This document shows positions 1,835-44,077 of a stretch of DNA of 64,000 nucleotides, one piece after another. The DNA comes from Pelagomonas calceolata (lineage: Eukaryota > Sar > Pelagophyceae > Pelagomonadales > Pelagomonadaceae): positions 2,632,501 through 2,696,500 of the forward strand of contig CAKKNE010000002.1 in assembly GCA_918797485.1 (NCBI GenBank), in the 5' to 3' direction. Position numbers and translations under genes: made by a program. The notes beneath the pieces were generated by a model, which searched no databases, had not been told where the DNA came from, and saw only the letters and a program-made list of their open reading frames with translations. Each line of letters begins with the position of its first letter. The stretch's first letter is position 1.

Positions 1835-1857
1835 GCTAGTGTCTTACGGACGCTAGC
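1835..1857 (+). promoter_or_regulatory. Divergent-promoter palindrome, copy 1 (23 nt)
   Basis: Left arm GCTAGTGTC, spacer TTACG, right arm GACGCTAGC. The arms are inverted repeats of 9 nt with a single T/G mismatch. It lies in the 386 bp head-to-head gap, 127 bp from the start codon of the M50 protease and 238 bp from that of the lipase fusion. The same gap also holds a 15 bp direct repeat (1731-1745 and 1781-1795, 50 bp apart). No other gene is visible in it. Confidence 0.75.
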
Positions 1858-2094
1858 GTCCGTTTTTGCGATGAGAACGATGAGAACGAGGCGTTCACGC
1901 TCTGTGTTATAAGCGTAGGCTGCTAAATCATTCATACCCTCGGCCAGGGCCAGCTCTTTCGTATCGCCGAGAGGCATACGTGCCCCCAACTAGCCTCCGC
2001 AGCACAAGGACATTTTTTGCAGCCCGGACAACGCGGCGCGTAGTCATTAGCAGTCCAGACCTGTAGAGCTGAGCAGTGCAGAGATAAAAAGAAA

Positions 2095-4896
2095 ATGGAG
2101 CCCGACCTCGAGGGCTACGCGCAGCTCACGACGGACGACGAGGAAGTCTCGGACGAGGAGGACTCGATCCACTCCGAGCCATCAATAGAAGAGGAGGAGC
2201 CCAAGATCCTGCTCGAAGTATTATCGCCGGGCGGCGCGCGGCTCGTCTTCCTGCTGGTCTACGCGTGTTGCGCTATTGCGATAGCGCAGTACGCCCTGGC
2301 CGCGCGGGCGACGAAGGCCACGGCGACCGCCTTGTCGGGCCAGACCCTCGACGTGATCAGTCAGGACGATGCTACGATCTGGCTCGCGCGCTTCCCCGCT
2401 TTAGGAGATGTGCAGGGCAACGTGGCGCTGCGTGCCATCTACCCGAACCAGACGGCCATTCATGATTCAAACACCACCGTTGACGACGACGCCACTGTAG
2501 ACGACGACGCCGTGGCCGCGTCCACGCTGCCGGTGACCTACGACATCGACGTGTGGGCGACGCGCTCGCGGAACGCCGGTCTGGGCGACGCCAAGACCGT
2601 GGTACTACAAAGGAATAGTGAGACGGCCTACATGAACACCGCGGGAGACAATGTTCTGGCGACGTCGACGAAGGTCGCGTCGTGGTACCAGCGCTCCGAG
2701 AGCGTGCCGTCGCGGTCGCGCGTCCACGGCTTCCTCGTGCAGCTCACGTACTGCGTACCCGCGAACGCTACCCAAAGGTGCGCGGCCGTCGACGACGCGA
2801 CGCGGCGAACGCTCGCACGTGGCGGCGATCTAACGTTAAAATACCACGACCTCAAGCCGCTCACGACGCCGGCGCGGGCCGCGGCGCGCATCTTGTTATT
2901 GGTCTGGTGGGGCTTGTTATTCACGGCGTGGGCGCCTTACATACGCAGGGGCGGCGCTTTATATTTGTCGCTCCTACTTGTTGGTCTCTTGTTCTTCGCG
3001 GACCCCGTGGATTGTGTGGTCGAGGCGCTGCCGCGTTCTACGAAGATCCCGCCGCTGGTCGCGTTCTGCTCCCGCGTTGGTCGAAGACTGGGCGAGGCGA
3101 CGTTGTTAGCAGCTCTGCTGTTGGCCGCGGACGCCGACGGCCGCGCGGCGCGTTCGTTAGATCCGCTCTGGCGGAGCGGCCGGCCCTACTATCTGCTGGC
3201 GCCCGTGGTCTACGGCTTCTGCGGCGTCTGGGCCGTCTTCCTGCAGTTTCCGACGCTCTGGGGGTCCGATCGACCACCGACGCTCGCGCTCGTTTCGTGG
3301 CCGGCCGGTTCGCTCCGGGCCTTCGCGGCGGCGGCGCTGGGCGCCGTCGCTTCGGGCCTGGCCTGGGGCGTGCTGTTCATATGTCTCATCGTGCGGGCGG
3401 GCCGGCGCCTCGCGGCCGCGCCGTACGCGAGGACGCGGAGGCACCAGCTGGCCTTCCGCTTCTTCGCGCTGCAGGCGTCGTTGGTGGCGCTGTTCGTCGC
3501 GGCGTCCTTCGTGATTGGGTTCGTGGATTTGTGGCGCGATTACAGATCCGACTTCATGGCTTTCGTGAAACATGGAGACGCTCGTGCGGTCAAGGACCTC
3601 GCTGGTGCCTTGGAAGCCCTTGTCACGGACGATGTAAGGGATTTAGCTGAGGCTTATTGTTTTGCGGTCTACGTGGCACTCTTGCTTTATGTGAATCTGC
3701 CGCCGCCGCAGAACAACGACCTCCTCACTAGTCGTGAGGTCGTACGCGACGAGCGCGACGACAAACGTCGCAGACGGCGCCGGCCGCACGCGCGCCCGGC
3801 CTTCGTCGTCGAGACGGCGCGGTGGCTGGCAGAGGTCTCCGACGCGACCTACGGCGACGGGACGAGGGACCTCGAGTGCGGCATGGTGAACGTGACGCGG
3901 CTGGCGCACGACGACACGCGCGGCCTCGTGGCCCTACGGGCGCGGGACCCGTCGCACGTGGTCGTGGCCTTCCGGGGAACTGCGTCCGCGTCGCAAATTT
4001 CGACGAACGCCGACGTGCGCCTGAAGCGCATCGTGACACCCTCCGCTCCAGACGAGCCGCCGCCGCCGCCCGTTTTAAGATCGGAGTCCTCGCTTGAAGA
4101 CGACGACGAGCCCGCGGGAAACGGGCGCCTCGGCCTCGACCTGTTGGTGCGGACCGCCGCGGTCGCCGTGGATGTGACTGCGCGCGGGGGAGACCTGCTA
4201 CAGGACTTCGCGCGCGGGCTCCTCAACGCGTCCGGGGCCGTGGACGTGGCGCCAGGCCTCGCACAAACCGTAGAACCCTGCGTGCACAACGGCTTCTGGA
4301 CTGCCTACGCGGGCGTGCGACCGCAATTGGAACGGGCCTTGTCAGAGGCGCTCGCGACCAACGAAGTGAGGCGCGTCAGCTTCACGGGCCATTCCTTAGG
4401 CGGCGCGCTGGCGCAGCTCGCGAGCGCGGACTTCGCGAGCGGCGCGCTCTGCCCGACGCACGGCCGGCGCGCCGACTGCGTCACGTTCGGGGCCCCACGC
4501 GTGGGCAACGCCGTCTGGGCGCGCGCGTTCTCCAAACTAGTTCCGGAGGCGTGGCGCGTCGTCTGCGACGGCGACGTCATCGCGTTCCTGCGGGGCTGCG
4601 GCTACGTCCACGCGGGCGTCGAGGTCGTGGTCGACGCCTCGGCGCAGACGCCGGGATATGTGGTCGTCGACCCGACGCCCGTCGAGAAGAAGCTGCGCCT
4701 GGGCTGCGGCAAGTCGGTGGGAGCACACAAGCTTGCGGCCTACCGCAAGGGCCTCTGGGGCGCGGCGGGGTGTCGGGGAGACCCGCCCGCGCGACGAGCT
4801 CGGCAATCTGAGTCTCCGGCGCCACCAGTTGCTGAACATACCGTCTCCTGCTGCTGGCGGACGCGTGTCGACGTCGACGCGACGCCGCCCATATAA
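2095..4896 (+). CDS. Multispanning membrane protein (Wntless/TMEM181-like) fused to a class 3 lipase
   Basis: 933 aa; ATG in a good context (aaaATGg). There is an acidic cytosolic N-terminus (1-45), one membrane span near 50-75, and a long probable luminal beta-rich domain (75-260). A block of about seven hydrophobic spans (265-560) follows, in the order seen in Wntless/TMEM181-type proteins of the GOST group. Residues ~600-910 are an alpha/beta-hydrolase of the class 3 lipase family: GHSLGG with nucleophile Ser767, then VTFGAPRVGN, an Asp candidate in CDGDVIAFL, and a His in VGAHKLAAYRKG. The charged tail after ~900 has no recognised domain. Inferred role: a lipase tethered to a secretory-pathway membrane, perhaps a regulated diacylglycerol-lipase-like enzyme. 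The lipase call is firm; the identity of the membrane block is less so. Tail-to-tail with the next gene. Confidence 0.75.
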   Translation: MEPDLEGYAQLTTDDEEVSDEEDSIHSEPSIEEEEPKILLEVLSPGGARLVFLLVYACCAIAIAQYALAARATKATATALSGQTLDVISQDDATIWLARFPALGDVQGNVALRAIYPNQTAIHDSNTTVDDDATVDDDAVAASTLPVTYDIDVWATRSRNAGLGDAKTVVLQRNSETAYMNTAGDNVLATSTKVASWYQRSESVPSRSRVHGFLVQLTYCVPANATQRCAAVDDATRRTLARGGDLTLKYHDLKPLTTPARAAARILLLVWWGLLFTAWAPYIRRGGALYLSLLLVGLLFFADPVDCVVEALPRSTKIPPLVAFCSRVGRRLGEATLLAALLLAADADGRAARSLDPLWRSGRPYYLLAPVVYGFCGVWAVFLQFPTLWGSDRPPTLALVSWPAGSLRAFAAAALGAVASGLAWGVLFICLIVRAGRRLAAAPYARTRRHQLAFRFFALQASLVALFVAASFVIGFVDLWRDYRSDFMAFVKHGDARAVKDLAGALEALVTDDVRDLAEAYCFAVYVALLLYVNLPPPQNNDLLTSREVVRDERDDKRRRRRRPHARPAFVVETARWLAEVSDATYGDGTRDLECGMVNVTRLAHDDTRGLVALRARDPSHVVVAFRGTASASQISTNADVRLKRIVTPSAPDEPPPPPVLRSESSLEDDDEPAGNGRLGLDLLVRTAAVAVDVTARGGDLLQDFARGLLNASGAVDVAPGLAQTVEPCVHNGFWTAYAGVRPQLERALSEALATNEVRRVSFTGHSLGGALAQLASADFASGALCPTHGRRADCVTFGAPRVGNAVWARAFSKLVPEAWRVVCDGDVIAFLRGCGYVHAGVEVVVDASAQTPGYVVVDPTPVEKKLRLGCGKSVGAHKLAAYRKGLWGAAGCRGDPPARRARQSESPAPPVAEHTVSCCWRTRVDVDATPPI

Positions 4897-5031
4897 TCTT
4901 TGTCTCTGTTTTTCTACTTCTAAGTCCCAGACATGAATATATATACACATTACGCCTTGTGGCGCGACCGCGTGGCGGCCGCTGGTCTTGTCGATCGATT
5001 TTCTGTATGCGTCACCATCGGATGTGGTTTC

Positions 5032-5853
5032 CTACCCGAAGGCGCGGAGGTTGTAGAGCGAGCCGTCCATGTCGTCGAGGCCCGGCGCCGGCTTGCTCGG
5101 CAGCGCGTGGAGCGACCCGTCCATCGTCGCGAGCGCGGGCGCGGCGACTTCCGCTGCCTTCGCGTCGAGTTCGACCTGGGCCACGCGCCGCGCCAGATCA
5201 TCGTCCGCGTCGGCGACGGCCGCCTGCGCCTCCGCCGATCCCAGCCCGCCGCGCTTCCGCTTGACGCCGTCCAGACTGTCCGAGCCCGGCGGGCCCGGCT
5301 CAGCTAACGCCGCGAGGTTGTCCGACGAACTGATTCGAGACTTCGACCCGATGCGCCGGAGCTTTCTTCGTAGCGAGCGGGCCATGAACCACGGGAGCTT
5401 CTCGAGCTGATACAGGGGCGGCAGCGACTTGATGCGCTCGAGCTGCGCCGCCCGTACTAGTTTCCGCGACGCCTCGATGGCCTCCGGCGAGATCCCTTCG
5501 GCGGCGAGGATCTCCCGCCGCCGTTCCGGATGGATCCAGGGCACGGGCCTTCTTGGATAAAAACGCGGCCGGAGCGGCTGGTGCTCGTCGACACTTTTCA
5601 CGATGCAACACACCTCCTCCCGGCCCAACCCGAGTGCGACGCCCGACCGCACCGCCGGGTTGTCGGCGATGGCCATGGGGAAGACGTGGATCGAGACGTC
5701 GCCGAACGCGACGCGGCGGCGCTTCGTCGCCATGAGCGCGTCGTCGATGTGCTCGGAGCGCTGGGCGGGCCGCGGCGCCGACGGCGTGACGCGGCGCGGT
5801 TTCGGTTTCTTAGCGCACGAATTAATTAAAAGAGCTACTTTGTCGCGCGGCAT
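5032..5853 (-). CDS. Stramenopile-type protein of unknown function
   Basis: 273 aa with an ATG start. The basic N-terminus (KKPKPRR, then KRRR) suggests a nuclear protein. Residues ~47-75 (VAFGDVSIHVFPMAIADNP followed by a Gly-rich LGLG) match a short motif I remember from many uncharacterised diatom and other stramenopile proteins, of the form 'V-F-V-I-E..-lGDNP-v-GpP-LgW'. The middle is helical and charged (HPERRREILAAEGI onward), with a basic stretch RSLRRKLRRIGSKSR. Near the C-terminus a short unit MDGSL-L is repeated twice (MDGSLHALPSKP and MDGSLYNLRAFG). No enzyme signature is visible. Its 5' gap with the thymidine kinase gene is 624 bp and is one of only two complete head-to-head gaps here without a clear palindrome. 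Confidence 0.6.
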   Translation of the reverse strand: MPRDKVALLINSCAKKPKPRRVTPSAPRPAQRSEHIDDALMATKRRRVAFGDVSIHVFPMAIADNPAVRSGVALGLGREEVCCIVKSVDEHQPLRPRFYPRRPVPWIHPERRREILAAEGISPEAIEASRKLVRAAQLERIKSLPPLYQLEKLPWFMARSLRRKLRRIGSKSRISSSDNLAALAEPGPPGSDSLDGVKRKRGGLGSAEAQAAVADADDDLARRVAQVELDAKAAEVAAPALATMDGSLHALPSKPAPGLDDMDGSLYNLRAFG

Positions 5854-6477
5854 CGACGAACCCGCGCGCGGTCGCAGTTTTCAGCGAAATCCCGAAGGAC
5901 TATTTGTTCAGGACTTTTGTCACGAACCGTGGGGTCCTCGCGCTCGCGGGTCGCGCTCGCTAGCTCGTCTGAGCCCTCAATAAAGTGGGTGAGCAGTGTG
6001 TTCAGAGTTTCCTGAGAGTCGCCGCTCAAATCTCGTCGTCCACGCGGATCAGGCGCCCGATTGCACTGGACTTTGACGCACGAGTGTTTCCTCCGCGCGC
6101 GCTGCGGCCAAGGGCAAGAGCTCTGTGATATATATGTTGCCTCTGGCAGGTGAACACACGCCATCTCTGTGCAGAGCGAAGACTCAAAGTGGCTCATGGA
6201 TTGCTCTTTGCAGCTTTAATCGTCGCACTAGCATCCAGCCACTAGCGCTCACAACATCTCAGCTCTCCGGCAAAGGCGCGGGCGCATCGCAGCCTTCTGG
6301 GGGAGGCACGCGCGTGCGGGACGCTCTGAGATCCGCCCTGTTTGCACGCGAAAGCAGGCAGCCCAAGGAACAGGGCCGCACGCCCCAGAGGGCAGCAACA
6401 GCCCAGAGGCGCCACCCCCGCCAACGCCGCCGCGGGACTGCCCAGAGGCAGTCTAACCCCGCGGCGCGGCGGCGAGC
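5854..6477. other. Head-to-head intergenic region without a clear palindrome
   Basis: 624 bp between the divergent unknown gene and the thymidine kinase gene. I see no RNA gene or credible ORF. It contains two half-site-like CACTAGC words near 6216-6238 but not the full interrupted palindrome. A GCCCAGAGG-rich stretch lies just before the kinase ATG (about 6380-6450), with the word occurring two to three times. Confidence 0.5.
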
Positions 6478-7335
6478 ATGGGCAAGCTTTATTTCAACTA
6501 CAGTACGATGAACGCCGGCAAGTCGACGGCCCTCCTCCAGGCGGCCTACAACTACGAGGAGCGGGGCATGGCGGTGCTCTTATTGACCGCCGCGTGCGAC
6601 GATAGAAGTGGACGAGGTCGCATCGCGAGCCGCGTCGGACTGGCGAGAAATGCCGAGGTGTTTGACGCCTCTACTGATTTGTACGAGCGGGTCCGAACAG
6701 CTAGAGGCGACGAGGACGCCGACAACACCGTGTCGTGCGTTTTGATCGACGAGGCCCAGTTCCTCACAAAAACCCAAGTCTGGCAGTTAGCTAGAGCGGT
6801 GGACGATGTTGGTGTTCCTGTCCTCTGCTATGGACTAAGGGTCGATTTTAGGGGAGAATTGTTTCCCGGGAGTGCCGCCTTGCTAGCTTGGGCGGACGAG
6901 CTGAGAGAGGTAAGAACAGTATGCTTCTGCGGCAAGAAGGCGACGATGGTCGTGCGGCGAGGTGCCGACGGGAATCCGTTGACGCACGGCGACCAGGTCG
7001 GCATCGGCGGCGAGGAGCAGTACGTGAGCTTATGTCGGAGGCACTTCCGGGCGGCAACTTCCAAAAACGACGACGGCAAGAGCGAGGCCGTGCGCTTCGT
7101 CGAGTCTGCATTAGGTGCGCCTGCTTTGCCGCCCGGCCGCGCGCTGCCCGCGAAGATCCGCGAGCCGCCGCCGCCGCCGCTCATGACGGTGACGCCGATC
7201 AAGGCGCGCGCGGCGTCCCCCGCCGGCCCGGCGCAGCGCGCCGGGCCCGTGGCGGGCGTCTTCTCGGGCCTGCGCCCGGCGCCGCGCGTCTTCTGCATCG
7301 GGGGCCTCGGCGCGGGGCCGCCGAGGTCCTCCTAG
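6478..7335 (+). CDS. tdk: Thymidine kinase, bacterial (E. coli Tdk) type
   Basis: 285 aa from the ATG at 6478. Residues 1-205 are a complete type II thymidine kinase: P-loop MNAGKST at 11-17, the catalytic/Walker B segment VLIDEAQFLT, the lasso region GIGGEEQYVSLC, and zinc-type ligands in TVCFCGKK and CRRHF. It phosphorylates thymidine in the salvage pathway. The wording is strikingly like E. coli Tdk (LYF-YS-MNAGKSTALLQ; PVLCYGLR-DFRGELF; ICFCG-KA) rather than the plant/animal TK1 form, which suggests acquisition from bacteria. This rests on remembered sequences. A proline/alanine-rich tail of ~80 residues is added. The 3' end overlaps the convergent gene by 4 bp. Confidence 0.93.
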   Translation: MGKLYFNYSTMNAGKSTALLQAAYNYEERGMAVLLLTAACDDRSGRGRIASRVGLARNAEVFDASTDLYERVRTARGDEDADNTVSCVLIDEAQFLTKTQVWQLARAVDDVGVPVLCYGLRVDFRGELFPGSAALLAWADELREVRTVCFCGKKATMVVRRGADGNPLTHGDQVGIGGEEQYVSLCRRHFRAATSKNDDGKSEAVRFVESALGAPALPPGRALPAKIREPPPPPLMTVTPIKARAASPAGPAQRAGPVAGVFSGLRPAPRVFCIGGLGAGPPRSS

Positions 7336-8471: not shown

Positions 8472-8692
8472 TGTGTTGACGGCAGCCTGAATATGCGTCT
8501 AGGGTTGTGTTGCGCTCGTGCGTGTGTTGCGGGCAGCTCCAGTTCGATTGTACGGTTCGTACTGCGCAGCCAGCCAAGTTTTGCACTTTCCCGGCATGAG
8601 CCGGAGACGAGGCGCTCAGAAGTGGAAGGATGCGTAGTCTCAAGTCCTCCCCTTGATATCTGAACAAGCTGAGAGGTCGAAGGGACCCGTGC

Positions 8693-8715
8693 GCTAGCGG
8701 CAGTAAGACACTAGC
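8693..8715 (-). promoter_or_regulatory. Divergent-promoter palindrome, copy 2 (23 nt)
   Basis: Read on the minus strand: GCTAGTGTCTTAC, then TGCC, then GCTAGC. It sits in the 418 bp head-to-head gap, 222 bp from the start of the YiiX-like gene and 175 bp from the start of V-ATPase subunit d. Nothing else is recognised in the gap. Confidence 0.75.
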
Positions 8716-10035: not shown

Positions 10036-10061
10036 CTTGTGACACTAAGTATACATACATA

Positions 10062-11231: not shown

Positions 11232-11255
11232 GCTAGTGTCTTATAGGCCGCTAGC
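11232..11255 (+). promoter_or_regulatory. Divergent-promoter palindrome, copy 3 (24 nt)
   Basis: GCTAGTGTCTTAT, then AGGCC, then GCTAGC. It lies in the 322 bp gap between SBDS (193 bp from its ATG) and the ankyrin gene (107 bp). The gap holds nothing else that I recognise. Confidence 0.75.
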
Positions 11256-11361: not shown

Positions 11362-12191
11362 ATGATTCCCGAAAATGTAGCCGCTGCTGCAAATAATTGC
11401 GAAATAAACGCAGTAATGGAGTGGCTGGCCGCGCACCCGCAGTCCGTGAACGACGTCGACTCCGGGGGAGAGTCGCTACTCGTACTGTGCGTAAATGAAA
11501 GCTACGACGGAATTGAGACTAACCAAGACGACCAGCTCGAACTGGTCCGCTACCTTTTGAGTCAAGGGGCGGACCCAAATCTCAGCAGTGGTTCGGACGA
11601 CGAGACGCCATTGTATGCGTCCTGTGGTTCAGGCCGTGCACACCCTTTTCCTCACGCCCAACTACTTGTAGCTTGTTTGCTCCGCGCCGGCGCCGACCCA
11701 AACCTGAAGGTTGCCGAAAATGCCCCTCTCTTCTCCGCGCTCGACTGTTTCCTCGGAGCAGACGAAGGATCATGGATCCTTCCCGTCGTCGCGCATTTGC
11801 TGCGATACGGCGCGTCGCTGGACAATTGCGAAGGGAACCGGTCGGCTGAGGAGGTGATGCAGAGGAGGAGCGGCGTTGGCCCGAGTTGGTCCAGGGAAAC
11901 CTGGAATTTCAAGCTGCTGCGATTCTGATCCGAGGCGTACGCGCCGCGGGCTCGTGGAAAAAATATTGCCGGAGATGGGGCGCGCACCGCGACATCCTGA
12001 GGCTTCGGAGCCTCGTGGTTCGCGGCCGCGGTACGACGAGTGACACATGGCTCGCTGGCATGGTCCGACTGAAGGAGAACGGCCTCGTCTGGAAGGTCCT
12101 GTCGTTCTGGCGCGATCCCGACGACATCGAGGAGGTCGTCCTTCCGCCGGATGAAGAGTGGCCGGAACCCTATTTTGTGAGAGTGTATTAA
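11362..12191 (+). CDS. Ankyrin-repeat protein with a pelagophyte-type C-terminal domain; one 41-nt intron
   Basis: ATG at 11362. The N-terminal frame carries about four ankyrin repeats (VRYLLSQGADPNL, LLRAGADPNL, LLRYGASLD). A plain reading runs into a stop at 11928. Removing a GT...AG segment at 11854-11894 (41 nt) joins it to a second frame that reads GVRAAGSWKKYCRRW, then ILRLRSLVVRGRG, then GLVWKVLSFWR. This order (ankyrins, 'VRAAGSW', 'LR-L--RGRA', 'VFWKVLSFWR') is, as I remember it, a common layout of ankyrin proteins in pelagophyte genomes. The spliced protein is 262 aa. The terminal block could be a substrate-adaptor motif, but its function is not known. A frameshift instead of an intron is possible. 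Confidence 0.7.
11854..11894 (+). other. Predicted 41-nt spliceosomal intron
   Basis: Starts GTGATG and ends CCAG. Its removal (41 nt) shifts codons from the first ankyrin frame to the second without adding a stop, joining GAG to GGA. Other AG acceptors nearby would not preserve frame with this donor as cleanly. Inferred only from frame logic. Confidence 0.55.
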
Positions 12192-13617: not shown

Positions 13618-13640
13618 GCTAGTGTGTCTGTCGACGCTAG
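13618..13640 (+). promoter_or_regulatory. Divergent-promoter palindrome, copy 4 (variant, 23 nt)
   Basis: GCTAGTGTGTCTG, then TCGAC, then GCTAG. One GT is duplicated in the left arm and TTA is changed to G. It lies in the 440 bp head-to-head gap, 270 bp from the Cys-rich membrane protein start and 149 bp from the myosin start. Confidence 0.65.
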
Positions 13641-13788
13641 AGTTCGAGCGCAAAACATTTGCGCGGCGCGTCTTAGCCGCTGCTGTGCACGCACACGATC
13701 GCTGGAGCAGCGCACGGCTCGCACGCGACCGCTTTGCAGGAGCGGTGCGCCGCGTGACGACCTCTGCTGCGCGGGCCAGGCCTTGACC

Positions 13789-19161: not shown

Positions 19162-19183
19162 GCTAGTGTCTTACGACGCTAGC
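19162..19183 (+). promoter_or_regulatory. Divergent-promoter palindrome, copy 5 (22 nt)
   Basis: GCTAGTGTCTTAC, then GAC, then GCTAGC. It is in the 527 bp gap between LST8 (321 bp to its ATG) and KEA (186 bp). The flanking sequence also repeats ACAAAAACTTGC twice (about 19093 and 19145) upstream of it. No other gene is seen in the gap. Confidence 0.75.
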
Positions 19184-23303: not shown

Positions 23304-23436
23304 TTTGCTCGCTGGGAGTGGTTGCTTTTAAAAACTTGGAGTCGACTGCGACGTCGTGAGCTTTTTGTGTACTGTCTCGCGTCAGTGGTCTATTTAGCGC
23401 CCTGGCGGTCTGCTGTGCCCGGATGGCCTTGCAAAT

Positions 23437-23458
23437 CTAGCGTGTCTAAGACGCTAGC
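23437..23458 (+). promoter_or_regulatory. Divergent-promoter palindrome, copy 6 (variant, 22 nt)
   Basis: CTAGCGTGTCTAAG, then ACGCTAGC. Relative to the consensus the left arm has an extra CG and the spacer is shortened, making the site nearly fully self-complementary. It lies in a 267 bp head-to-head gap, 134 bp from aspartyl aminopeptidase and 113 bp from the fusion gene. Confidence 0.7.
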
Positions 23459-31048: not shown

Positions 31049-31073
31049 GCTAGCGCCTGTAAGACACACTAGC
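31049..31073 (-). promoter_or_regulatory. Divergent-promoter palindrome, copy 7 (25 nt)
   Basis: Read on the minus strand: GCTAGTGTGTCTTAC, then AGGC, then GCTAGC. One GT is duplicated in the left arm. It is in the 539 bp gap, 257 bp from the IQ/WW start and 259 bp from the CK1 start. The rest of the gap is GC-rich without a recognised gene. Confidence 0.75.
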
Positions 31074-34945: not shown

Positions 34946-34969
34946 GCTAGTGTCTTACAGGACGCTAGC
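34946..34969 (+). promoter_or_regulatory. Divergent-promoter palindrome, copy 8 (24 nt)
   Basis: GCTAGTGTCTTAC, then AGGAC, then GCTAGC. It lies in the shortest head-to-head gap (178 bp), only 61 bp from the M3 peptidase ATG and 95 bp from the FHA gene ATG, so it must be close to both transcription starts. Confidence 0.78.
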
Positions 34970-35063: not shown

Positions 35064-36764
35064 ATGGCCGCCGAAAAAGCCGCCGACGGCGGCCCACCCA
35101 TACCGGACTGGGCCGCCGGCGACGCGGCGACGGAGGCGCCCTTCGTGCTCGAAGTGATCAAGGACGGCGTGCCCGTCGACGAGATACCATTGACGGCGGC
35201 GCGCTGCCTCGTGGGTCGGGCGGCCGACGCCGTGCAGGTGCCGCTCGCGCACGCGTCCATCAGTCGAGTGCACGCCTGCTTCCAGCGGTCGACGGACGGT
35301 TTGTTGTATGTGGCCGACTGCGCGTCGTCGCACGGCTCGCGGCTCAACAAAGCGCCGTTGCCAGCTCTGAAATATGTGGAAGCGCGCGACGGCGACGTGC
35401 TGCAGTTCGGGGCTTCCACGCGTATCTTCGCGTTACATAAGAGAGGACGGGAGCGCGCCGAACGAGCATTGTTAGACACGGCGACCGCGGACGCGTCCGC
35501 CACCAAACACGATGCCACAAGAAAGGTGCGCAAGATCCACACGGAGAAGGAGCAGCCTCCCGACGTTGCAGAGAAGAAGCAGGTCACGGCCGCGGATTTA
35601 CATGCGACGACCTGGGGCCAGGACGACGACGCGGCTCCCGAGAAAGACGACGAGGCGCTGCCCGACTACCTGAAGAAGGACCAGGGCTTCATGGAGTACG
35701 GGGGAGAGATCTCGTCGACGCTCAAGACCGAGGAGAAGTCTGAAAGAGACGCGAAGCTGCACGAGCGCCTCGAGACGAAGCTCCGGAAGTTGAATGCCGC
35801 GCGGTCCCACAACCAGCGTTTACTAACGAAGGAGGGCGGCCAGGCCGGGTTGTCGGACGGCCAACGGAAAGCTTTTGACTCCAATGATGAACGCATCAAG
35901 AAGTTGACCGATGAGATATCTGATTTGGAAGATACGATCCGAGGAAGAAATAAGCAAAGGGACGAGTCCCGAAGGCGGAACGAGGACGACTCCTACTTAT
36001 ACGCGAAGCAGCGGGACGAGGAGCCGGAGGAGGAGGTCATGCGCGACCTCACGACGCCGCTGGCGCGCGCGCGGACGGCCGAGGAGAAACAAGCTAGACG
36101 GAACCGGCGGTTCATGACCGCGGCGCCGGCCGCGGCGCCGCCTCCCCCTGATGAGGAAGATGGTATGACCTACGAAATGTTAAGGGAGAAGCGGGACCGC
36201 GTCGACGCGGCGTTGGTAAAACTGCGGGAAGGCCCTTCGCTCAGTACAAGGGAGGCCGGTGATGATGTCCTGGACGACTTCATGGCCGCGAACGACGAGC
36301 AGGAGGCGTCGGACGTCGCGGCGGCCGCCGCGCGTGACACGGCGGCGCTCGAGAAGGAGCGCGCGCGGCTGACCGTGCTCATGGACTTCGCGCGGCCGGC
36401 CCTCGAGGGCCTCTCGTCGTCGAAGACGCCGGCCGCCGTCGCGCCGCCACCGGAGCCCAATGCGCCGGAAGCGCCCGAACCGGAGGCCGCAGCTCCGACG
36501 CTGCCGCCGCCGAAGCCGCCGGCGCCGCCAAAACTTAAAGTGGCGGCGCCCATGGCCCCGACGCTGCCGCGCGCGCCCGACCCTGAGGACGAGGAACCCT
36601 CAAAACGCCGCAAGAAGAAGAAGCGCCGCGTCATGGGCCCGGCGCGCGGGCCCTCGTCGTCCGCCGCGACGAGCGCGCTCGAGGGCGGCGACGTGGACTG
36701 GGCGCCGCCCATGGGGCAAGACGGGAGTGGTCGGACGGCGCTGAATGACAAGTTCGGGTATTAA
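35064..36764 (+). CDS. Kanadaptin-like FHA-domain nuclear protein (SLC4A1AP family)
   Basis: 566 aa from the ATG at 35064; the upstream open frame is leader. Residues ~27-128 form an FHA phospho-threonine-binding domain (CLVGRAADAVQVPLAHASIS followed by RVHACF, and SSHGSRLN). A conserved ATTWGQDDD segment follows (~175). Then comes a charged helical region with EYGGEISSTLKTEEKSERDAK, a coiled coil (ERIKKLTDEISDLEDTIRG), DDFMAANDEQ (~405), a Pro-rich linker, and a basic C-terminus (KRRKKKKRRVMGPARG). The order FHA, acidic 'TWG', coiled coil, 'D-FM' fits kanadaptin, a nuclear protein linked to pre-mRNA processing. Assignment is by layout from memory. Tail-to-tail with FabI. Confidence 0.7.
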   Translation: MAAEKAADGGPPIPDWAAGDAATEAPFVLEVIKDGVPVDEIPLTAARCLVGRAADAVQVPLAHASISRVHACFQRSTDGLLYVADCASSHGSRLNKAPLPALKYVEARDGDVLQFGASTRIFALHKRGRERAERALLDTATADASATKHDATRKVRKIHTEKEQPPDVAEKKQVTAADLHATTWGQDDDAAPEKDDEALPDYLKKDQGFMEYGGEISSTLKTEEKSERDAKLHERLETKLRKLNAARSHNQRLLTKEGGQAGLSDGQRKAFDSNDERIKKLTDEISDLEDTIRGRNKQRDESRRRNEDDSYLYAKQRDEEPEEEVMRDLTTPLARARTAEEKQARRNRRFMTAAPAAAPPPPDEEDGMTYEMLREKRDRVDAALVKLREGPSLSTREAGDDVLDDFMAANDEQEASDVAAAAARDTAALEKERARLTVLMDFARPALEGLSSSKTPAAVAPPPEPNAPEAPEPEAAAPTLPPPKPPAPPKLKVAAPMAPTLPRAPDPEDEEPSKRRKKKKRRVMGPARGPSSSAATSALEGGDVDWAPPMGQDGSGRTALNDKFGY

Positions 36765-36855
36765 GTTTTTGTTGTTGTACCTGTTGCAGGCGCTCCACGC
36801 CGTCGAAGCGACGTCGATATACTTTCCCCCGACACTTACACCCCGGAAAATAAGC

Positions 36856-37213
36856 CTAGGCCTTGGCCGGCACGGGCAGGCCCTCGCCGTCGGCCGTCAG
36901 CGCGTTCGAGTCCACCGCCATGCCCATGGCGTGGAGGCCGTTGTCGACGTAGAGCGTCACGCCCGTCACCGCCCTCGCTAAAGGCGAGAGCAAGAAGTAG
37001 GCCGACGACCCGACGTCGTCGGCATACAAGTCCTTGCCGAGCGGGGAGTTCGCCTTCGAGTAGTCGATCGCGAGATCGATGAAGGACTTCTTGCCCCTCT
37101 CGCTAATAGCGGAGGCGGCCCGGGACTTGAGGGGGCCCGCGGAGATGGTGTTGACGCGGATGCCGTACTTGCGACCGGCCTCCCACGCTAAAGTACGGGT
37201 ATCGCTCTCGAGG

Positions 37214-37248
<35 letters not shown>

Positions 37249-37896: not shown

Positions 37897-38159
37897 GGTG
37901 CTACAGGATGCAAGAGTCTTGGATTTGCGGCAGCGATCGCAGCGAAACGGCGACGCAGCGGTATGTATGCAGTATGTAGGTTGCAGAACAGCACTTGTGC
38001 TTGCGAAGGGTGCAAGATCAGGCACGCTTTGCTAAGCTCTTTGTCGCTTGCAATGTCATCAATCATGCCCACTTCGACGTCGTGGAATCGTCCAAACGAG
38101 CCATGCCTTGTGGTAAGGATGCCTGTGTAGACCACTACACGCGAGCAGTGAGTGGCTTC

Positions 38160-38182
38160 GCTAGCGCCTGTAAGACACTAGC
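38160..38182 (-). promoter_or_regulatory. Divergent-promoter palindrome, copy 9 (23 nt)
   Basis: Read on the minus strand: GCTAGTGTCTTAC, then AGGC, then GCTAGC. It is almost central in the 551 bp gap: 264 bp from the FabI ATG and 266 bp from the glycosylase ATG. The rest of the gap shows no gene. Confidence 0.78.
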
Positions 38183-38447
38183 CAGCCAAGCCCAGCTGGG
38201 AGCGCCAAGCTGGCAGTGTGCGCTTCGCTGTAGCTGCTGGTGCTGCTAGTGGATCACTGTGGCCAGGCCATAGCTCGAGAAACGGAAAAACGCAGCGCTT
38301 TTAGCCTCAGAAACCAGCTTTTGGCTCGGAGAGCATCTGCTCGGAGAGCAGGAGAGCAGCAAAAGGCTGCAAAAAATCACCAAAACGATCACCCTCACGC
38401 GACGCGCGAGCGTGCTCGCGCTCTGCGCCGTCCGGAGCACGTCGCTG

Positions 38448-39354
38448 ATGGCGCCGAAGAAGCGCCCGCCGCGCGCCGCGCCGCCGAGTGCGAAGCGGGC
38501 CAAGGCCACGACGCCCGTCGTCACCATGCCACCCGGCTTCAAAGACGAGTGGCGCCTCATCAAGGAACTACGCAAGGACCGGACCGCCGTCGTCGACACG
38601 ATGGGCTGCGAGCGACTCGCCGATCCGCACGCGTCGGAGAAGGATCGTAGGTACCACGTCCTCGTCTCTTTGATGCTGTCCTCCCAGACGAAGGACACCG
38701 TGAACGCGGCGGTCATGGGCGCCCTCAAAGCTCGGGGCTTATCCGTGAAACGAATCCTGGACGAGACCAGTGAGGACGAGTTCCACGAATTGATCAAGCC
38801 CGTCGGCTTCCACAACGTCAAGACGAAGAACATCCGGAAGGCGACGCAGATCCTGAGAGATCAGTACGATGAAGAGGTGCCGTCGACCATGGAGGCTTTA
38901 TTAGCTCTCCCGGGCGTCGGCCCGAAGATGGCGTTGCTGGTCCTGAAATGCGCGTTTGACATCACAGCAGGGATCTCAGTGGACACGCACGTGCATAGAA
39001 TTTCAAACCAGCTGGGCTGGACGGGCGGGACCCTGTGTGGAAATCAAAATGTCACGGCGCCCGCTCGAAGATTTCTACACAGGCGGCGCTCCAACGTTGG
39101 ACAAGGCTGCGTTCCCCTGCAAAGACCCCGAGAAGACGCGGAAAGCTCTGGAGCAGTGGGTGCCGCGCGACGACTGGGGCGACGTGAACTGGCTGCTCGT
39201 GGGGCTGGGCCAGGAGGTCCAGACGGAGAAGCCGAAGTTGCTACGGAAGGCGCTGGACTCGTCGGATCCGGCGTATGCGGTCGCGTTCCTCGGGCGAATC
39301 GGTATGGACACTGCCAAGGTCGCGAAGGCCGAGGGGCTGGAGCTCGTAACATGA
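38448..39354 (+). CDS. NTH1: Endonuclease III homologue (NTH1-type DNA glycosylase) without the Fe-S cluster loop; one 46-nt intron
   Basis: Spliced from 38448-39036 and 39083-39354, 286 aa. The helix-hairpin-helix [17 protein letters not shown] contains the catalytic Lys160 and [15 protein letters not shown] the catalytic Asp179. The family removes oxidised pyrimidines from DNA. Frame continuity breaks after GWTGG and resumes as [19 protein letters not shown], then WLLVGLGQE. Excising a 46-nt GT...AG segment joins the two. After LLVGLGQ the family normally has four Cys (C-x6-C-x2-C-x5-C) that bind a [4Fe-4S] cluster. Here there is no Cys at all in the last ~60 residues. The basic N-terminus ([17 protein letters not shown]) suits nuclear import. 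Tail-to-tail with ALG12. Confidence 0.88.
39037..39082 (+). other. Predicted 46-nt intron in the DNA glycosylase gene
   Basis: Begins GTGGAAATC and ends TTTCTACACAG, a pyrimidine-rich acceptor. Removal gives the one-base frame change needed to continue the NTH domain. An alternative donor two bases earlier (39035) would not change frame and so does not work. Confidence 0.65.
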
Positions 39355-39403
39355 CTAGTATCTCTTAAAACAAACAACAGTTGTCGCGTCGATGGCGTCA
39401 GCA

Positions 39404-40981
39404 CTACCTCAACCGCGCGTGCCGCAGGATCGCGAGACGCGGCGCCGTCGTCGCGTGGAGGAACGGGAATTTTTTAAGATCGATCTTCAGTCCGGAAAAC
39501 GCCTCGACCGTCGCGACCACGTCAAAAGCATCGTCTTCCACAGGCAGCTCCGCGAGCCGAAAGTCGAACTCGTCGAAATCAAGCAGCCCGTCGCGCTTGT
39601 CGTAGATCCAACCCGCGTGGACCAGCTCCTCGCCGAAGCGCGAGGCGCCGGTCGTGCAAGCGAGGTCGTCGAGGTGGACCCGCGCCGGCCCCGGGAGCGC
39701 ATAGCCATAGTCGTCGTGCAAGAGGCGTAATGCCACGCCGCCGGGGTAGTTGTTTCGTGACGCGGGCGCGAAGATTATGAGAGTCGCCGCCGCGGTCGCC
39801 GCGACGACGCCGAGGACCGCTATCCTCAATACTCGCGACCTCCAGAGCCGCTCACAAGCAACGGCCGCGCAGAGGTTGAGCAGTGGCAAGGCCGGGAACA
39901 CGAAACGGAGTTCTTTATGGGGGATAAAGCTCAATAACACGACTGAAGCCAAAGCCGAGACGAACCACGGCCGACATTCTCCTTCGAGCAGCGCGCCGAC
40001 CACAGAAAGCGGCAAAGCGAAGCCCAGGGCTCGCGGCAGGGCCGACGTCGCATACCATAACGGAGGAGACGTGCCCCACGCGGCGCTCCGATCTTCCACG
40101 GGGTTGTTAAATAGCAAAACCTCGCCCTCGGGCCAGACCGTACGCCGCCACAGCTTGGAATCCACGACCACCGACAAGGCTACCGCCAGACCTACGCCGA
40201 GCATCGTGCACAACGCGCCCTTCGGTAACGGACAGCTCCTCTCGATAAAGCACCACGCCACGCCGAGCGGGAGGGCTACAGCAGCGACGTCGCACCGGAT
40301 CGACGCCACGACCGCGCCGAGGAGGCCCAGCGCCGTACCTCTGTGACCGTCCAAGGCCGCGCCATACGCCCACAATACGAGAGGCAGCGCGAGCGAGTTC
40401 GGCAGGAAGCGCGACGCGTAGAACGGGCCGTGGAACTGGACCGCGGCGAGCACGCAGAGGAGGCGCCTCGCAGTGGACCCGAAGGCTCGACCTGCGGCCC
40501 TCGAGAATCGCGCGAACGCGGCCGCGGTCACGACCGCGAGGACGAGGCGGCAGCCTACTTGTGCCGCGAGCCTCGGGGCGTTTGGTGGTGGCGCGCGCGA
40601 GCCCACGACGTACCGCAAGACGGCCGCACTCGTGCCGGGGCACGCTCTAGCTATTGGCCTCAAAAACGTAGCTACGACGCCGTAGAGGAATGCGATACCC
40701 AACGCGCCCAGGAACGTCCGCGGCACCGTCCCGGGGTAGGTGTGGTGGTCCCATTCGTCGACGTCGGGTACGAAGAGCGCGTCGTGGGCCGCTTGCGTGT
40801 TGAACGACTCCTCGACCTTCGTGAAGGGGCAGGCGAGGCAGTGCGCCACCGCTGCGCCGGCGAAGAGCAAATCCCACGCGCCTGCTTGGTGCGACGGCTG
40901 CTCTGCTTGTGAGAAGAGCTGTGACGGCTGCGGCGTTGCAGCTGGTGGGGCTTTGGCGGGGCGGCGGTTACGCAGCGGCAT
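39404..40981 (-). CDS. ALG12: ALG12-type dolichyl-P-mannose alpha-1,6-mannosyltransferase (GT22)
   Basis: 525 aa, ATG at the complement of 40979-40981. This is a multispanning ER protein of family GT22, which adds the eighth mannose to the lipid-linked oligosaccharide for N-glycosylation. Signatures: CPFTKVEESFNTQAAHD near the N-terminus (conserved KVEESFN luminal loop), HHTYPGTVPRTFLGAL, and SFIPHKELRFVFPALPLLN (the HKE-RF motif). About ten hydrophobic spans lie between and after. Divergent from CFAP91 across the longest gap in the window. Confidence 0.92.
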   Translation of the reverse strand: MPLRNRRPAKAPPAATPQPSQLFSQAEQPSHQAGAWDLLFAGAAVAHCLACPFTKVEESFNTQAAHDALFVPDVDEWDHHTYPGTVPRTFLGALGIAFLYGVVATFLRPIARACPGTSAAVLRYVVGSRAPPPNAPRLAAQVGCRLVLAVVTAAAFARFSRAAGRAFGSTARRLLCVLAAVQFHGPFYASRFLPNSLALPLVLWAYGAALDGHRGTALGLLGAVVASIRCDVAAVALPLGVAWCFIERSCPLPKGALCTMLGVGLAVALSVVVDSKLWRRTVWPEGEVLLFNNPVEDRSAAWGTSPPLWYATSALPRALGFALPLSVVGALLEGECRPWFVSALASVVLLSFIPHKELRFVFPALPLLNLCAAVACERLWRSRVLRIAVLGVVAATAAATLIIFAPASRNNYPGGVALRLLHDDYGYALPGPARVHLDDLACTTGASRFGEELVHAGWIYDKRDGLLDFDEFDFRLAELPVEDDAFDVVATVEAFSGLKIDLKKFPFLHATTAPRLAILRHARLR

Positions 40982-41760
40982 CTCGTGTTTTCAGGATACT
41001 GCAGAGGAGCCCACAGCTGCCTTGAGCAATGCCACAGCGATGGCGGACGCAGTGCTTACTTAAAGCACTGTCGAGAATCGATGAGAAGTGTTCAAAAACG
41101 CAACTGAAGCACTTTCACCGGTGTGCCAGATGGCCTGGACTCCGCGAGAGATGCTAACTAGCGGCCCGTAAGACACTAGGGATGCCTGCAACATGTGTGC
41201 ATCGCGCCGCCGCGGCGTGCGGCCGGGACGCCGGGCGGAGGGACAACATCATCGGAGCCGTCAGAACCCGTCGATGCTAGGGCAATCCGTCCGGGCTCCG
41301 GCGCGCGGCATGACCTGTAGCCTGAGCTTTACTCTGCAATCGGCAGAGCCAAAATAGGGGGTGAACCCGCGCGACGAAAGCCCCGCTCATGCGAGGGTTT
41401 ACCGGCCACGGGCGCGGCCCTAGAGCGACACTAGACTGCTACGAGCCGAAAGGGCAGCCAAATGGCAGCCCAATGGACCATGAGGGGCAGCCCTGCCGGG
41501 AACCTGGACCCTTGGCGTGGCCGCACGAGGGGTCCTGGCTGCCCCCGACGACACCTCGGCGCGACGAAATCAGATAGTGTAACCTAGCTACAGCTCGTAC
41601 AAAGGTAGCGCTTGTCGGCCCTGCGGCAGCTACGCTCGGCGCGGCAAGCACCCGACGCGAGGCTGCGGAACAACCAAGGCACACATAGGACCCACCGCGA
41701 GCCAGCGGAGACGAACCGAAGCGCGCTCGGGGCTGCCCCAACAACGAGCAGCTACCACCA
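40982..41760. other. Longest head-to-head gap (779 bp)
   Basis: Contains palindrome copy 10 (41158-41179) and, at 41420-41434, a shorter CTAGAGCGACACTAG inverted repeat that may be a decayed second copy. It also has GGCAGCC words repeated around 41454-41500. I see no tRNA, snRNA or credible ORF; short ORFs here lack family resemblance. Confidence 0.5.
41158..41179 (-). promoter_or_regulatory. Divergent-promoter palindrome, copy 10 (22 nt)
   Basis: Read on the minus strand: CTAGTGTCTTAC, then GGGC, then CGCTAG. The outer G/C pair is lost. It is 177 bp from the ALG12 ATG and 582 bp from the CFAP91 ATG, the only copy far from one of its genes. Confidence 0.72.
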
Positions 41761-43362
41761 ATGGCCCGCACGGAGTCGAGGGCCTTCGACGCCTACTTCG
41801 ACCCCACCTGGCACGGCGCCGGCGCGCCCCCCCGGCCCCGACCCGCGCCCTTCCACGCTGAGACGCAAGTACCCCAGGAACGGTACAAGTACTTCCAGCG
41901 GCCTTTGGTCGAGCACCTCAATCCTTTATCGACGAACGTGCTGATCGCGCCGTCCACCAAAAAGGAGGAGCTGGACGATGGCGACGCCCGCGTGAAGGAT
42001 GCGGGGACGCAGTCGACGTATCGAGAGTCCGAGGCCCAAACCGACCCTTATACGCCCGCGTATGTCGTACCGGAGGGCACGGACCCCGAGGTCCTGATGC
42101 TCGAACATTTAAAGTTCGGCGAGGGGTTGCCCGCCGGCGCGCGGGAAGTGGAGAAGATCGAGCAGGCTCGGGCTAAAAGACATTTGGAGGCCAATCTCCC
42201 GCCCGCGACGGACGAATGTTCTTTAGCTTTAAGAAGAAGGCTCCTGGAATGGCAGGAGATGAAGGAATTCAACATCAAGCAGAAGGAAATTGATGACGCG
42301 CACGCGCGAAGGTTGGGGCTGTTACGGCGCGCTTTGGACGAGAGAGATCAAGATCGAGAATTTATGCAAGAGCAGCGCGTCGATACGTTAAGGCAGAAGC
42401 GGGGCGAAGTGCGAGATCGCGCGTTGGAGTCCATCCAAGCGCAACGCATCAAGACGCTGCGGAAGCTCTCATTAGCGAGGGGAAGACTCTCGCAGAAGGA
42501 GCCGTATTCGGCACCGACGCCCGTCTCCAATCTAACAGGAAAGGATGCGCGACGTAGGAAAGCGGGCCGCGACATCATTTCCGAGTACGCGAACTACAGT
42601 TCTACGCAGTACGCGCCGATCACACGCGAGGGCACGAAGCTCGACAAGGACTCGCATATTTTCGATGTTACCAGAGTCGCGCCGCACTTGAACGGCCACG
42701 GTCTTCTGAATCAGCTCGGCGACGAGCCGCCCGCTCGATTAACCGAAACCATCGTCAAGGTGCCCATTCCCCAATCCGAACTGCCCGCGAAAACGGCGGA
42801 AGATCGGCACGCGGCGACGTTACGGCAGGACCTGGCTACATTGACATCCGTCCTGGAAGACGAGAGGAATCCTCAAGCCGCAGCCGATAGGAAGGAGGCC
42901 GCGCGGCTCGCGGCTCTGCCCGCCTGGTCGCCCTCGAAGACGCGCGTCGAGGAGAAGGACGCCACGCCGGAGAAGGAAACGACGCCGGAGGACGAGGAAC
43001 TGGCCGAGGCCCACGCGTACTTCGGGAATTTGCTCGAGAACGTGGAACAGGGGCGCCAGTCGATCCGGGAGCTGCGGGACGCGGCGACGACGCCGGCGAC
43101 GGCGGCGGAGTTGTCTGCGGATGACGACAAAGAAGCGCGGCGGCGCGCGGTGGAACGCGGGGCCGCGGACTCCATTGCCGGAGTTGTGGCCTCTTCTCTG
43201 CTCGACTACCTCTCCAAGGAATTAGTTCGGGAGGAGGAGAAGGAGGCGCTCGCTCAGCTGGCGAAGACGGCGGATATAGAAAGACGCGCGCGCGAGCAAG
43301 CCGAGACGGACCGGCGCGAGGCCGAGGAGCGCGTCAAGGCGCGGTCCGACGAGGCTAGTTAA
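41761..43362 (+). CDS. CFAP91: CFAP91 (MAATS1), radial-spoke/calmodulin-complex axonemal protein
   Basis: 533 aa, ATG at 41761. The family motif is clear: DAGTQSTYRESEAQTDPYTP (~80-99), then GTDPEVLMLEHLKFGEGLPAG. A highly charged helical domain (LEWQEMKEFNIKQKEIDDAH; LRQKRGEVRDRALESIQAQR) and coiled-coil C-terminus follow. The N-terminus reads FDAYFDPTWHG, also typical. In Chlamydomonas the homologue FAP91 sits at the base of radial spokes with the calmodulin-associated complex and helps regulate inner-arm dyneins. It is a good partner for the DNAH1-like dynein 7 kb further right. Tail-to-tail with a small unknown gene. Confidence 0.82.
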   Translation: MARTESRAFDAYFDPTWHGAGAPPRPRPAPFHAETQVPQERYKYFQRPLVEHLNPLSTNVLIAPSTKKEELDDGDARVKDAGTQSTYRESEAQTDPYTPAYVVPEGTDPEVLMLEHLKFGEGLPAGAREVEKIEQARAKRHLEANLPPATDECSLALRRRLLEWQEMKEFNIKQKEIDDAHARRLGLLRRALDERDQDREFMQEQRVDTLRQKRGEVRDRALESIQAQRIKTLRKLSLARGRLSQKEPYSAPTPVSNLTGKDARRRKAGRDIISEYANYSSTQYAPITREGTKLDKDSHIFDVTRVAPHLNGHGLLNQLGDEPPARLTETIVKVPIPQSELPAKTAEDRHAATLRQDLATLTSVLEDERNPQAAADRKEAARLAALPAWSPSKTRVEEKDATPEKETTPEDEELAEAHAYFGNLLENVEQGRQSIRELRDAATTPATAAELSADDDKEARRRAVERGAADSIAGVVASSLLDYLSKELVREEEKEALAQLAKTADIERRAREQAETDRREAEERVKARSDEAS

Positions 43363-43466
43363 GACAAATTCCCACATTTAGTAGTTCGGGCTCGGGCTCG
43401 GGTCCGGGTCCGAGTCCAATAAGTCCCCATGAGGACTCCAGGACATCATCGGCCGAGGACGTCCGA

Positions 43467-43871
43467 TCAATTCGCACTCGCCTTGAGCTCCGCGACGCGC
43501 GCCTCGGCGACGTCGCAGGCGGCGCGGAGCTTGTCGCGCTCCGCGAGCCGCCGGGCGAGCCAGGCGCTCCGCGTCGCGTCGGCCGGCGCGACATCTGCTG
43601 GTACTACAGAAGCGGAGCCGTCGGCCGCGTCGAGGCGCTCGAGCTCCTCCAAAACTGCCGGATCATCAACCAGTGTTGTCAAGTAGTCCCGGATCGCCGC
43701 CTCGCCGTTGCGCACCTCCCTCCGTAGTCCCTCGTCCACGTTCTCGGCGAGCGCGGGCCGCAGCTCCACGAATTCCGCGAAGACGTCGCGCGCGTTGAGG
43801 GCGCTCGCGCGCGCGGTCCACGACGCGGCGACCTTGCTGGCGAGGCGCTGGAGCTGCTCGTTTCGCTGCAT
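43467..43871 (-). CDS. Small helical protein of unknown function
   Basis: 134 aa from the ATG at 43871 (MQRNEQLQRLASKV); the nine residues before it start with TTG. The sequence is nearly all helix-forming and strongly charged (VFAEFVELRPALAENVDEGL; RREVRNGEAAIRDYLTTL; WLARRLAERDKLRAACDVAE), with an Ala/Asp/Pro loop around residue 95. It has no membrane span, signal peptide or catalytic motif. It could be a small coiled-coil subunit of a complex. Support for it being real comes from its alternating position and the palindrome 184 bp upstream of its start. Confidence 0.55.
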   Translation of the reverse strand: MQRNEQLQRLASKVAASWTARASALNARDVFAEFVELRPALAENVDEGLRREVRNGEAAIRDYLTTLVDDPAVLEELERLDAADGSASVVPADVAPADATRSAWLARRLAERDKLRAACDVAEARVAELKASAN

Positions 43872-44054
43872 TTTAACTCCTGAGTCTGAGAGTTTCAAAG
43901 CAAACGCAGCGGCAAGCGAGAGTTGTGCAACGAGCGTTGGCCCACGTTTCGCACGGCTGGAAAGAATGAGTCTGCCCGTATAGCGAACTACTTGGCCTTT
44001 GTAGGCGTCGTCCAGCTCTGGAGCGCGCGCGACCGACGGCTTTTGCAGGGATGC

Positions 44055-44077
44055 CTAGTGTCTTACTGGCCGCTAGC
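44055..44077 (+). promoter_or_regulatory. Divergent-promoter palindrome, copy 11 (23 nt)
   Basis: CTAGTGTCTTAC, then TGGCC, then GCTAGC. It is nearly central in a 395 bp gap: 184 bp from the small helical protein start and 190 bp from the transporter start. Nothing else is recognised in the gap. Confidence 0.76.

Follow-up and report, generated by a model that had tools for sequence, protein, structure and literature searches.

A 22-24-bp asymmetric quasi-palindrome in gene 5' flanks of Pelagomonas calceolata, a putative site of a promoter-architecture factor

The window analyzed here, a stretch of 64,000 nucleotides (nt) from the pelagophyte Pelagomonas calceolata (contig CAKKNE010000002.1, C2:2632501-2696500), carries a recurrent interrupted palindrome in the gaps between its genes. 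This site is an asymmetric quasi-palindrome of 22-24 base pairs (bp), about TTGCTAGTGTCTTAC-AGG-CCGCTAGCT, and its placement follows the gene 5' flank, not divergence as such. An earlier description made from the letters of the window (the sequence-only reading) had listed eleven copies, and we found all eleven, each to within one base of the position it gave. We scanned a genome of 32,445,274 bases in 8 contigs; the portions of PMC9481584 covered here describe the published RCC100 assembly as six nuclear contigs of 32.4 megabases plus plastid and mitochondrion. Placement statistics come from 264 contiguous kilobases (kb) of one chromosome (20 + 64 + 180 kb, the middle part being the window), plus 18 small loci and the ends of a repeat.

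Written as left arm, spacer and right arm, the copies in divergent gaps on the plus strand are site 1 (1835-1857, GCTAGTGTCTTAC-GG-ACGCTAGC), site 4 (13618-13641, a degenerate GT-expanded form, GCTAGTGTGTCTG-TCG-ACGCTAGA), site 5 (19162-19183, GCTAGTGTCTTAC-G-ACGCTAGC), site 8 (34946-34969, GCTAGTGTCTTAC-AGG-ACGCTAGC) and site 11 (44054-44077, CCTAGTGTCTTAC-TGG-CCGCTAGC). Those on the minus strand, also in divergent gaps, are site 2 (8693-8715, GCTAGTGTCTTAC-TG-CCGCTAGC), site 6 (23436-23458, GCTAGCGTCTTAG-AC-ACGCTAGA), site 7 (31049-31073, GT-expanded, GCTAGTGTGTCTT-ACAG-GCGCTAGC), site 9 (38160-38182, GCTAGTGTCTTAC-AG-GCGCTAGC) and site 10 (41157-41180, CCTAGTGTCTTAC-GGG-CCGCTAGT). Site 3 (11232-11255, plus strand, GCTAGTGTCTTAT-AGG-CCGCTAGC) falls in a same-strand gap according to our gene model; the gap is probably divergent, because an open reading frame (ORF) of 188 amino acids lies on the plus strand at 11362-11928. 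At two sites the start of the neighbouring gene depends on the model: the first ATG of the longest ORF lies upstream of site 8, with the coding-model start at 35066, and at site 11 it lies just before the site (44051), with the coding-model start at 44290.

Two divergent gaps of the window had been described as lacking the site, and we agree, since neither holds a match scoring 19 or more, our cut-off. The first (5807-6464) has its best score, 12.4, at 6227 on the minus strand; the second (48446-48828) separates a WDR3-like gene (45794-48445, minus) from a serine carboxypeptidase gene (48792-50402, plus). Among the ten window proteins tested, nine of which have gene calls backed by Pfam, the genes beside four of the sites encode a lipase, M50 and M3 peptidases, V-ATPase AC39, a WD40 protein, a Na/H exchanger and an FHA protein. 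Further along, positions 50764-63753 of the minus strand form a single open frame of 4329 codons.

The word is highly specific. Within the window, the 11-mer CTAGTGTCTTA with at most one mismatch has 9 matches against a shuffle mean of 0.30, and the exact two-arm pattern has 5 against 0.00. Genome-wide, the exact pattern CTAGTGTCTTACN{0,5}CGCTAG was matched 2091 times and its reversed control not once; the 13-mer with at most one mismatch gave 3251 matches (reversed control, 12), and the exact 12-mer CTAGTGTCTTAC alone 2364 (control, 1). The right arm stands 0-5 nt from the 12-mer in about 88% of these 12-mer matches; it stands 6-16 nt away in 33 cases genome-wide (control, 0), and two or more of these have another arm at 0-5 nt. 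A scoring matrix made from the window's 11 copies only (10 for the left arm) found 39 further sites at a score of 19 or more in the adjacent 200 kb, so that the 264 kb carry about one site per 5 kb; by chance, as estimated from six random sequences with the same base-to-base transitions, about one site per 264 kb reaches a score of 18. Copies are usually single, as had been claimed, with an exception at C1:575888 and C1:575925, only 37 bp apart. The exact pattern has no match among the viral contigs of IMG/VR, in a search that may omit records closely similar to this genome.

To place the sites relative to genes, we decoded the 264 kb with a coding model trained on the same stretch, which assigns 77% of it (202.8 kb) to coding sequence. 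Gaps of at least 150 bp between coding segments number 161, comprising 55 divergent, 55 convergent and 51 same-strand gaps; the same-strand class may include introns, and 15 of its 51 members are shorter than 250 bp. Of the 50 sites scoring 19 or more (11 in the window and 39 outside), 35 lie in divergent gaps and 15 in same-strand gaps, the latter being an upper count because at least one probable small gene (11362-11928) escaped the model. None lies in a convergent gap (P = 1e-4 given the non-coding length; 1e-3 outside the window), nor in the 202.8 kb of coding sequence. Counted by gaps, a site is present in 35/55 divergent, 15/51 same-strand and 0/55 convergent gaps. In the window the tally is 11/13, 1/4 and 0/13, respectively, with gaps assigned by their start, so that the gap across the right end of the window (site at 64203) counts as a window gap; outside it is 24/42, 14/47 and 0/42. 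The sequence-only reading had placed the site in almost every head-to-head gap and never in coding sequence or tail-to-tail gaps. Its second statement extends to the whole 264 kb, where the equal density in convergent gaps or coding sequence that it had named as speaking against its proposal was not seen; its first statement describes the window but not the surrounding sequence, and the absence of sites from the one tandem gap it had noted does not carry over to the wider stretch, where up to 15 of the 50 sites are in same-strand gaps.

Nearly all sites are close to the beginning of a gene: for 49 of the 50 the nearest predicted 5' coding start is at most 600 bp away (36 to 590 bp), and for 46 at most 350 bp, with a median of 200 bp. 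The sole exception sits at the left end of a repeat described below (L019:4158). Because 49 of the 50 sites are near a coding start and because their density does not differ significantly between divergent and same-strand gaps, the rule is the 5' flank and not divergence. Within divergent gaps the sites (n = 35) are central, with a mean offset of 0.11 of the gap length against an expected 0.25, a value as low as this being reached in 0 of 20000 simulations. Orientation is free, since neither arm is nearer to the coding start in divergent gaps (Wilcoxon P = 0.49) and the two orientations are balanced over all 50 sites (25:25). The AT content is about 0.43-0.45 across some 200 bp around the site and 0.33-0.37 further out; this AT-rich core is the only compositional feature that we describe, and we claim no periodicity. 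As side observations on gene order, 110 of the 161 neighbouring coding segments switch strand, in a count whose same-strand gaps include possible introns, and on the 264-kb stretch convergent gaps are tiny (median 95 bp) and divergent ones about 508 bp.

We also classified 18 loci elsewhere in the genome, a hand-chosen and non-random set made of the first C1 matches (L001-L008) and ten of the 33 long-spacer matches (L097-L106): 7 are divergent, 9 are in same-strand gaps at roughly 70-290 bp from a start, 2 are unclassified (L099 and L101), and none is convergent or coding. Two members of this set, L097 and L102, are 98% identical copies. The segments concerned (C3:119350-121150 and C6:3788360-3790160) are 97.8% identical over 1.8 kb, which is consistent in place with a duplication of chromosome ends between contigs 3 and 6, over 99% identical according to the portions of PMC9481584 covered here.

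A second word shows a comparable preference. GGCTGCCC/GGGCAGCC has 32 matches in 22 of the 55 divergent gaps, 5 in 4 of the 51 same-strand gaps and 0 in the 55 convergent gaps, and GGCTGCCC totals 53 on the 264 kb. Divergent gaps contain the site only in 20 cases, the site and GGCTGCCC in 15, GGCTGCCC only in 7 and neither in 13; with 15 gaps holding both and 13 neither, GGCTGCCC is ruled out as a clean replacement for the site. Its enrichment in divergent gaps suggests that the site may not be the only promoter word of this genome.

We regard it as fairly probable that the site is recognized by an abundant DNA-binding protein or complex serving to mark the 5' flanks of genes; most likely the site is a long putative binding site of a promoter-architecture factor. 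The concentration in 5' flanks to be expected of such a site is found (35 divergent, 15 same-strand, no convergent and no coding positions), and so is use by a large share of genes of varied function, judging by the 35/55 divergent gaps and the varied neighbours. One large factor or hetero-complex would read the site along both arms, contacting most of its positions in double-stranded DNA, and would keep the promoter core open, so that transcription could start on both sides. The free orientation fits a factor acting on chromatin, not one pointing the polymerase. The site would mostly serve gene pairs because genes often alternate strands, and in this way it resembles a bidirectional-promoter element. 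The sequence-only reading had gone further and proposed a dedicated one; the association with promoters holds by position (in 5' flanks, and centrally), but dedication to two directions is not supported, given up to 15 of 50 sites in same-strand gaps.

Several observations weigh against a promoter-architecture site. The label "promoter" rests on position relative to predicted coding starts, and the gene calls come from a coding model of our own making, unsupported by RNA evidence, that passed over at least one probable small gene. The densities of sites in divergent and same-strand gaps are not significantly different (P = 0.06; outside the window, P = 0.26). Moreover, 20 of the 55 divergent gaps have no site, so the site is not required, and the middle of these site-less gaps is similarly AT-rich, so that AT-richness is not specific to the site.

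The alternatives weighed below were given likelihoods that are not exclusive of one another. The one that survives best changes only the kind of putative binder: a symmetric palindrome with two equal half-sites, GCTAGYGKC, facing each other and bound by a homodimeric transcription factor. The anatomy of the site bears directly on it. In 100 exact matches listed among the 2091 (the first of the list, all on contig C1 and therefore non-random), the spacing has one length in 73 and is one base shorter in 17; spacers in those 73 are preferentially AGG (27), ATG (11) and TGG (10). Among the 40 sites of the 264 kb scoring 24 or more, the commonest base is kept in 35-40 of 40 per column throughout the left arm CTAGTGTCTT and the right arm CGCTAG, an upper estimate since the sites were chosen by score; a weaker TT precedes the left arm. 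GCTAG-YG is common to both arms and the outer bases are symmetric, as a homodimer would have it. However, a T/G mispair between the arms is retained in 37 of the 40 sites, and the arms do not replace each other: exact genome-wide matches number 3 for left-left versions (control, 0), 16 for right-right (control, 13) and 2091 for left-right (control, 0), the symmetric versions, which match on both strands, being counted once each. These patterns are not equally permissive, yet the difference is more than hundredfold. Arms that cannot be interchanged argue against a simple homodimer site, and we consider this alternative unlikely; the palindrome bound by a dimeric factor that the sequence-only reading had pictured is thus not supported in its simple homodimeric sense.

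Variants of the site include a GT-expanded form (GCTAGTGTGTC...) and spacers with an insert (CTG, CTGAAG or CTGTAAG plus TAC). Four long-spacer variants (L098, L099, L101 and L103, near 885-985; TTAC-CTGTAAG-TAC-AGG, or shorter) have about 50-110 bp in common from the site rightward, which suggests a second, short repeat of about 100 bp adjoining some of them, and their TAC...TAC insert resembles a small duplication or footprint. We also considered and rejected a splice-site reading, with TTACAG/G on one strand as acceptor and CT/GTAAGA on the other as donor: the acceptor AG is only partly kept (A in 53/73, G in 51/73) and orientation is balanced, the rejection resting on the acceptor and on orientation, not on the donor.

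A longer repeat ends at the site. Comparing the 264 kb with itself using BLAST revealed a repeat of 1.34 kb, 84% identical between its two copies (L019:4154-5496 and L027:1589-2941), with ends that fall at sites. A genome search found at least 40 long copies, a lower bound since 40 of 219 candidates were scored; the other copies are 80-87% identical to the query. A long form spans about 1.5 kb, beginning at a left quasi-palindrome and ending with the right site (L049:4754-6263 and L050:4789-6302, 88% identical). No coding sequence was detected in the one short and one long copy decoded. Rfam gave no match in the two copies L019 and L027, and found two transfer RNAs (tRNAs) in L023, in a search of these three loci only; ARAGORN predicted no tRNA in the window and two in 20 adjacent loci. 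A different, three-copy repeat of about 730-790 bp, 94-96% identical (L020:6901-7643, L023:8606-9393 and L026:3358-4139), has no site.

At the right end of the 1.34-kb repeat, a sequence that resembles the site and runs in the same direction is present in 36 of the 40 copies (25 clear and 11 degenerate), and none was found in L066, L070, L074 and L076. Mismatches to GCTAGTGTCTTAC number at most 2 in 25 copies, 3 in 4 and 4-5 in 7, the last with a CTAG-type left arm still in place; the best match on the opposite strand has 3-6 mismatches. A conserved CTGCA precedes the start of the site by 13-24 bp in 34 of these 36 copies, this anchor being unusable in L059 and L077, so that the repeat ends at a short, nearly fixed distance from the promoter motif and on a fixed side of it. 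Beyond the match, a rightward coding region begins after 100-437 bp in all 12 right flanks fetched (out of the 36), and of six left neighbours four point toward the repeat and two away, which would place the repeat in the slot of a leftward partner gene. The left end carries a related quasi-palindrome, mostly CCTAGT(G/A)TGTC..., in 7 of 12 copies (one partly seen); the other five lack it, and two of these (L049 and L050), read further left, continue into the long form. Spacer types differ between the repeat and generic sites: ATG is found in 10/36 against 1/48 (P = 7e-4) and TTTA in 9/36 against 2/48 (P = 0.008), with AGG at 1/36 against 5/48 (P = 0.23). The spacer types common to repeat copies indicate that the right-end site is, at least in part, inherited with the repeat. 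All 36 copies keep CTAG unchanged, against 33-47% for columns lying 9-20 bases ahead of it, a contrast on which we do not rely, since a match to CTAGTGTC was the criterion for choosing the rows and the preceding columns are not length-aligned.

These findings bear on whether the sites in general were left by a mobile element, as its footprints or its ends, and survive only between genes, where insertion was harmless. The right-end site in 36/40 copies of a non-coding repeat of 1.3-1.5 kb, the related left ends (7/12, plus the long forms L049 and L050), the excess of ATG spacers and of the T insertion (TTTA) in repeat copies, and the second repeat of about 100 bp all speak for it. However, the repeat was found at only two places on the 264 kb (self-comparison, E 1e-8), so that 48 of the 50 sites have no repeat body and the repeat cannot account for thousands of copies. 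A looser search with the long form matched a dozen other sites only over the motif and at most about 9 bases of left flank; sequence shared beyond the motif is therefore not a general property of the sites of this stretch. Neither the absence from 55 convergent gaps nor the central position would be expected from harmless drift, and placement is tied to gene 5' ends, not free. For the sites at large we judge a mobile origin quite improbable; that they are remains of a mobile element, which the sequence-only reading had named as a finding against its proposal, does not hold for their bulk, although one repeat family does have copies ending at such sites. A related proposal, for which we see a small chance, is that the genome-wide promoter site derives from a mobile-element end or still has its sequence in common with one, in which case the repeat may dock by recombination at promoter sites. 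It is based on quasi-palindromes of the same direction that bound the repeat on the right and, in copies read, in a related form on the left, and on a right-end site lying where the next promoter is expected (12/12). If it were true, one word of 22-24 bp would act both as the core of a bidirectional promoter and as the point of attachment for a non-coding repeat replacing the divergent partner gene.

Other alternatives fare worse against a promoter-architecture site. An element of the core promoter, or an initiator, that by itself sets where transcription starts would agree with the position 5' of a gene in 49/50 cases, but the distance to the coding start varies from 36 to 590 bp in these 49, a single site can serve a pair of starts and either orientation occurs, which leaves such a role improbable too. 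A site for replication origins, chromosome boundaries or nucleosome barriers, present in 5' flanks by coincidence, would suit the central position and the frequency of about one per 5 kb in the 264 kb; we found nothing specific against it, but placement in 5' flanks is more economically explained by a promoter feature, and we hold this possibility to be slimmer still. A DNA cruciform, or a hairpin in the 5' leader RNA, is the least probable of all: the arms are nearly complementary and G-U pairs are possible in one RNA strand, but the fixed mispair is kept and not repaired (37/40), symmetric perfect palindromes are rare, and the balanced orientation makes a strand-specific RNA role unlikely.

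As a binding site of a promoter-architecture factor, the element would be of practical interest. A single, very specific word present at about 60% of the divergent gaps of the stretch studied can serve as bait for the promoter factor and as a cassette for bidirectional expression in these algae, and it offers a test of how shared promoters evolve jointly with an alternating gene order; the repeat ending there is a natural experiment on insertion at promoters. Pelagophytes include an abundant open-ocean picoalga and brown-tide formers. To our knowledge, the length and asymmetry of the site are unusual for one so common.

In the portions of the open-licence literature covered by our search we found no description of the site, a search with its letter string returning only titles on unrelated subjects, and no description of a promoter grammar for pelagophytes. 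Words beginning with "promoter" or "motif" each occur 0 times in the main text of the genome paper, as far as it was covered (PMC9481584), and the covered portions of a survey of oomycete factors contain no matching motif (PMC11267843). The likenesses to known systems that we draw concern working mode and place only, and we claim no membership of a family. The CGCG element is bound by BANP. In the parts of the source covered here, this element, TCTCGCGAGA, is found in vertebrate promoters without a TATA box and is reported to drive transcription both ways in human cells; like the present site it is a short palindrome-like promoter word without a fixed distance to transcription starts, and it occurs in promoters of single genes and of gene pairs (PMC6192621). 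It differs in being symmetric, 10 bp long and of demonstrated activity, whereas the site here is asymmetric, 22-24 bp long and known from sequence alone; the two sequences are unrelated, the site having no symmetric TCTCGCGAGA core. The ZNF143/THAP11 site (SBS2/TAM) is a long, specific site at many mammalian promoters, and thus similar in kind, with a sequence unrelated to ours. The covered part of PMC6944463 confirms the motif names SBS2/TAM only.

Pelagophyte introners, another multi-copy sequence of these genomes, are intron-making elements with a length peak of about 210 bp in P. calceolata, according to the portions of PMC9860276 and PMC9481584 covered here. The site differs from them in its 22-24 bp and in lying outside coding sequence (0/50), where introners would appear as introns of about 200 bp; a relation was rejected, as the self-comparison of the 264 kb showed no introner-like repeat (about 200 bp) at any site. 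The yeast general regulatory factors Abf1, Reb1 and Rap1 have sites that centre open promoter regions, often between divergent genes; those sites are shorter, and for ours the position is read from the DNA letters only. The Tf1 retrotransposon of fission yeast is targeted to promoters through Sap1. Here the likeness is confined to the repeat, whose copies stop a short and almost constant distance away from a promoter motif, on one side of it; unlike Tf1, the repeat is non-coding, and it may itself include the site.

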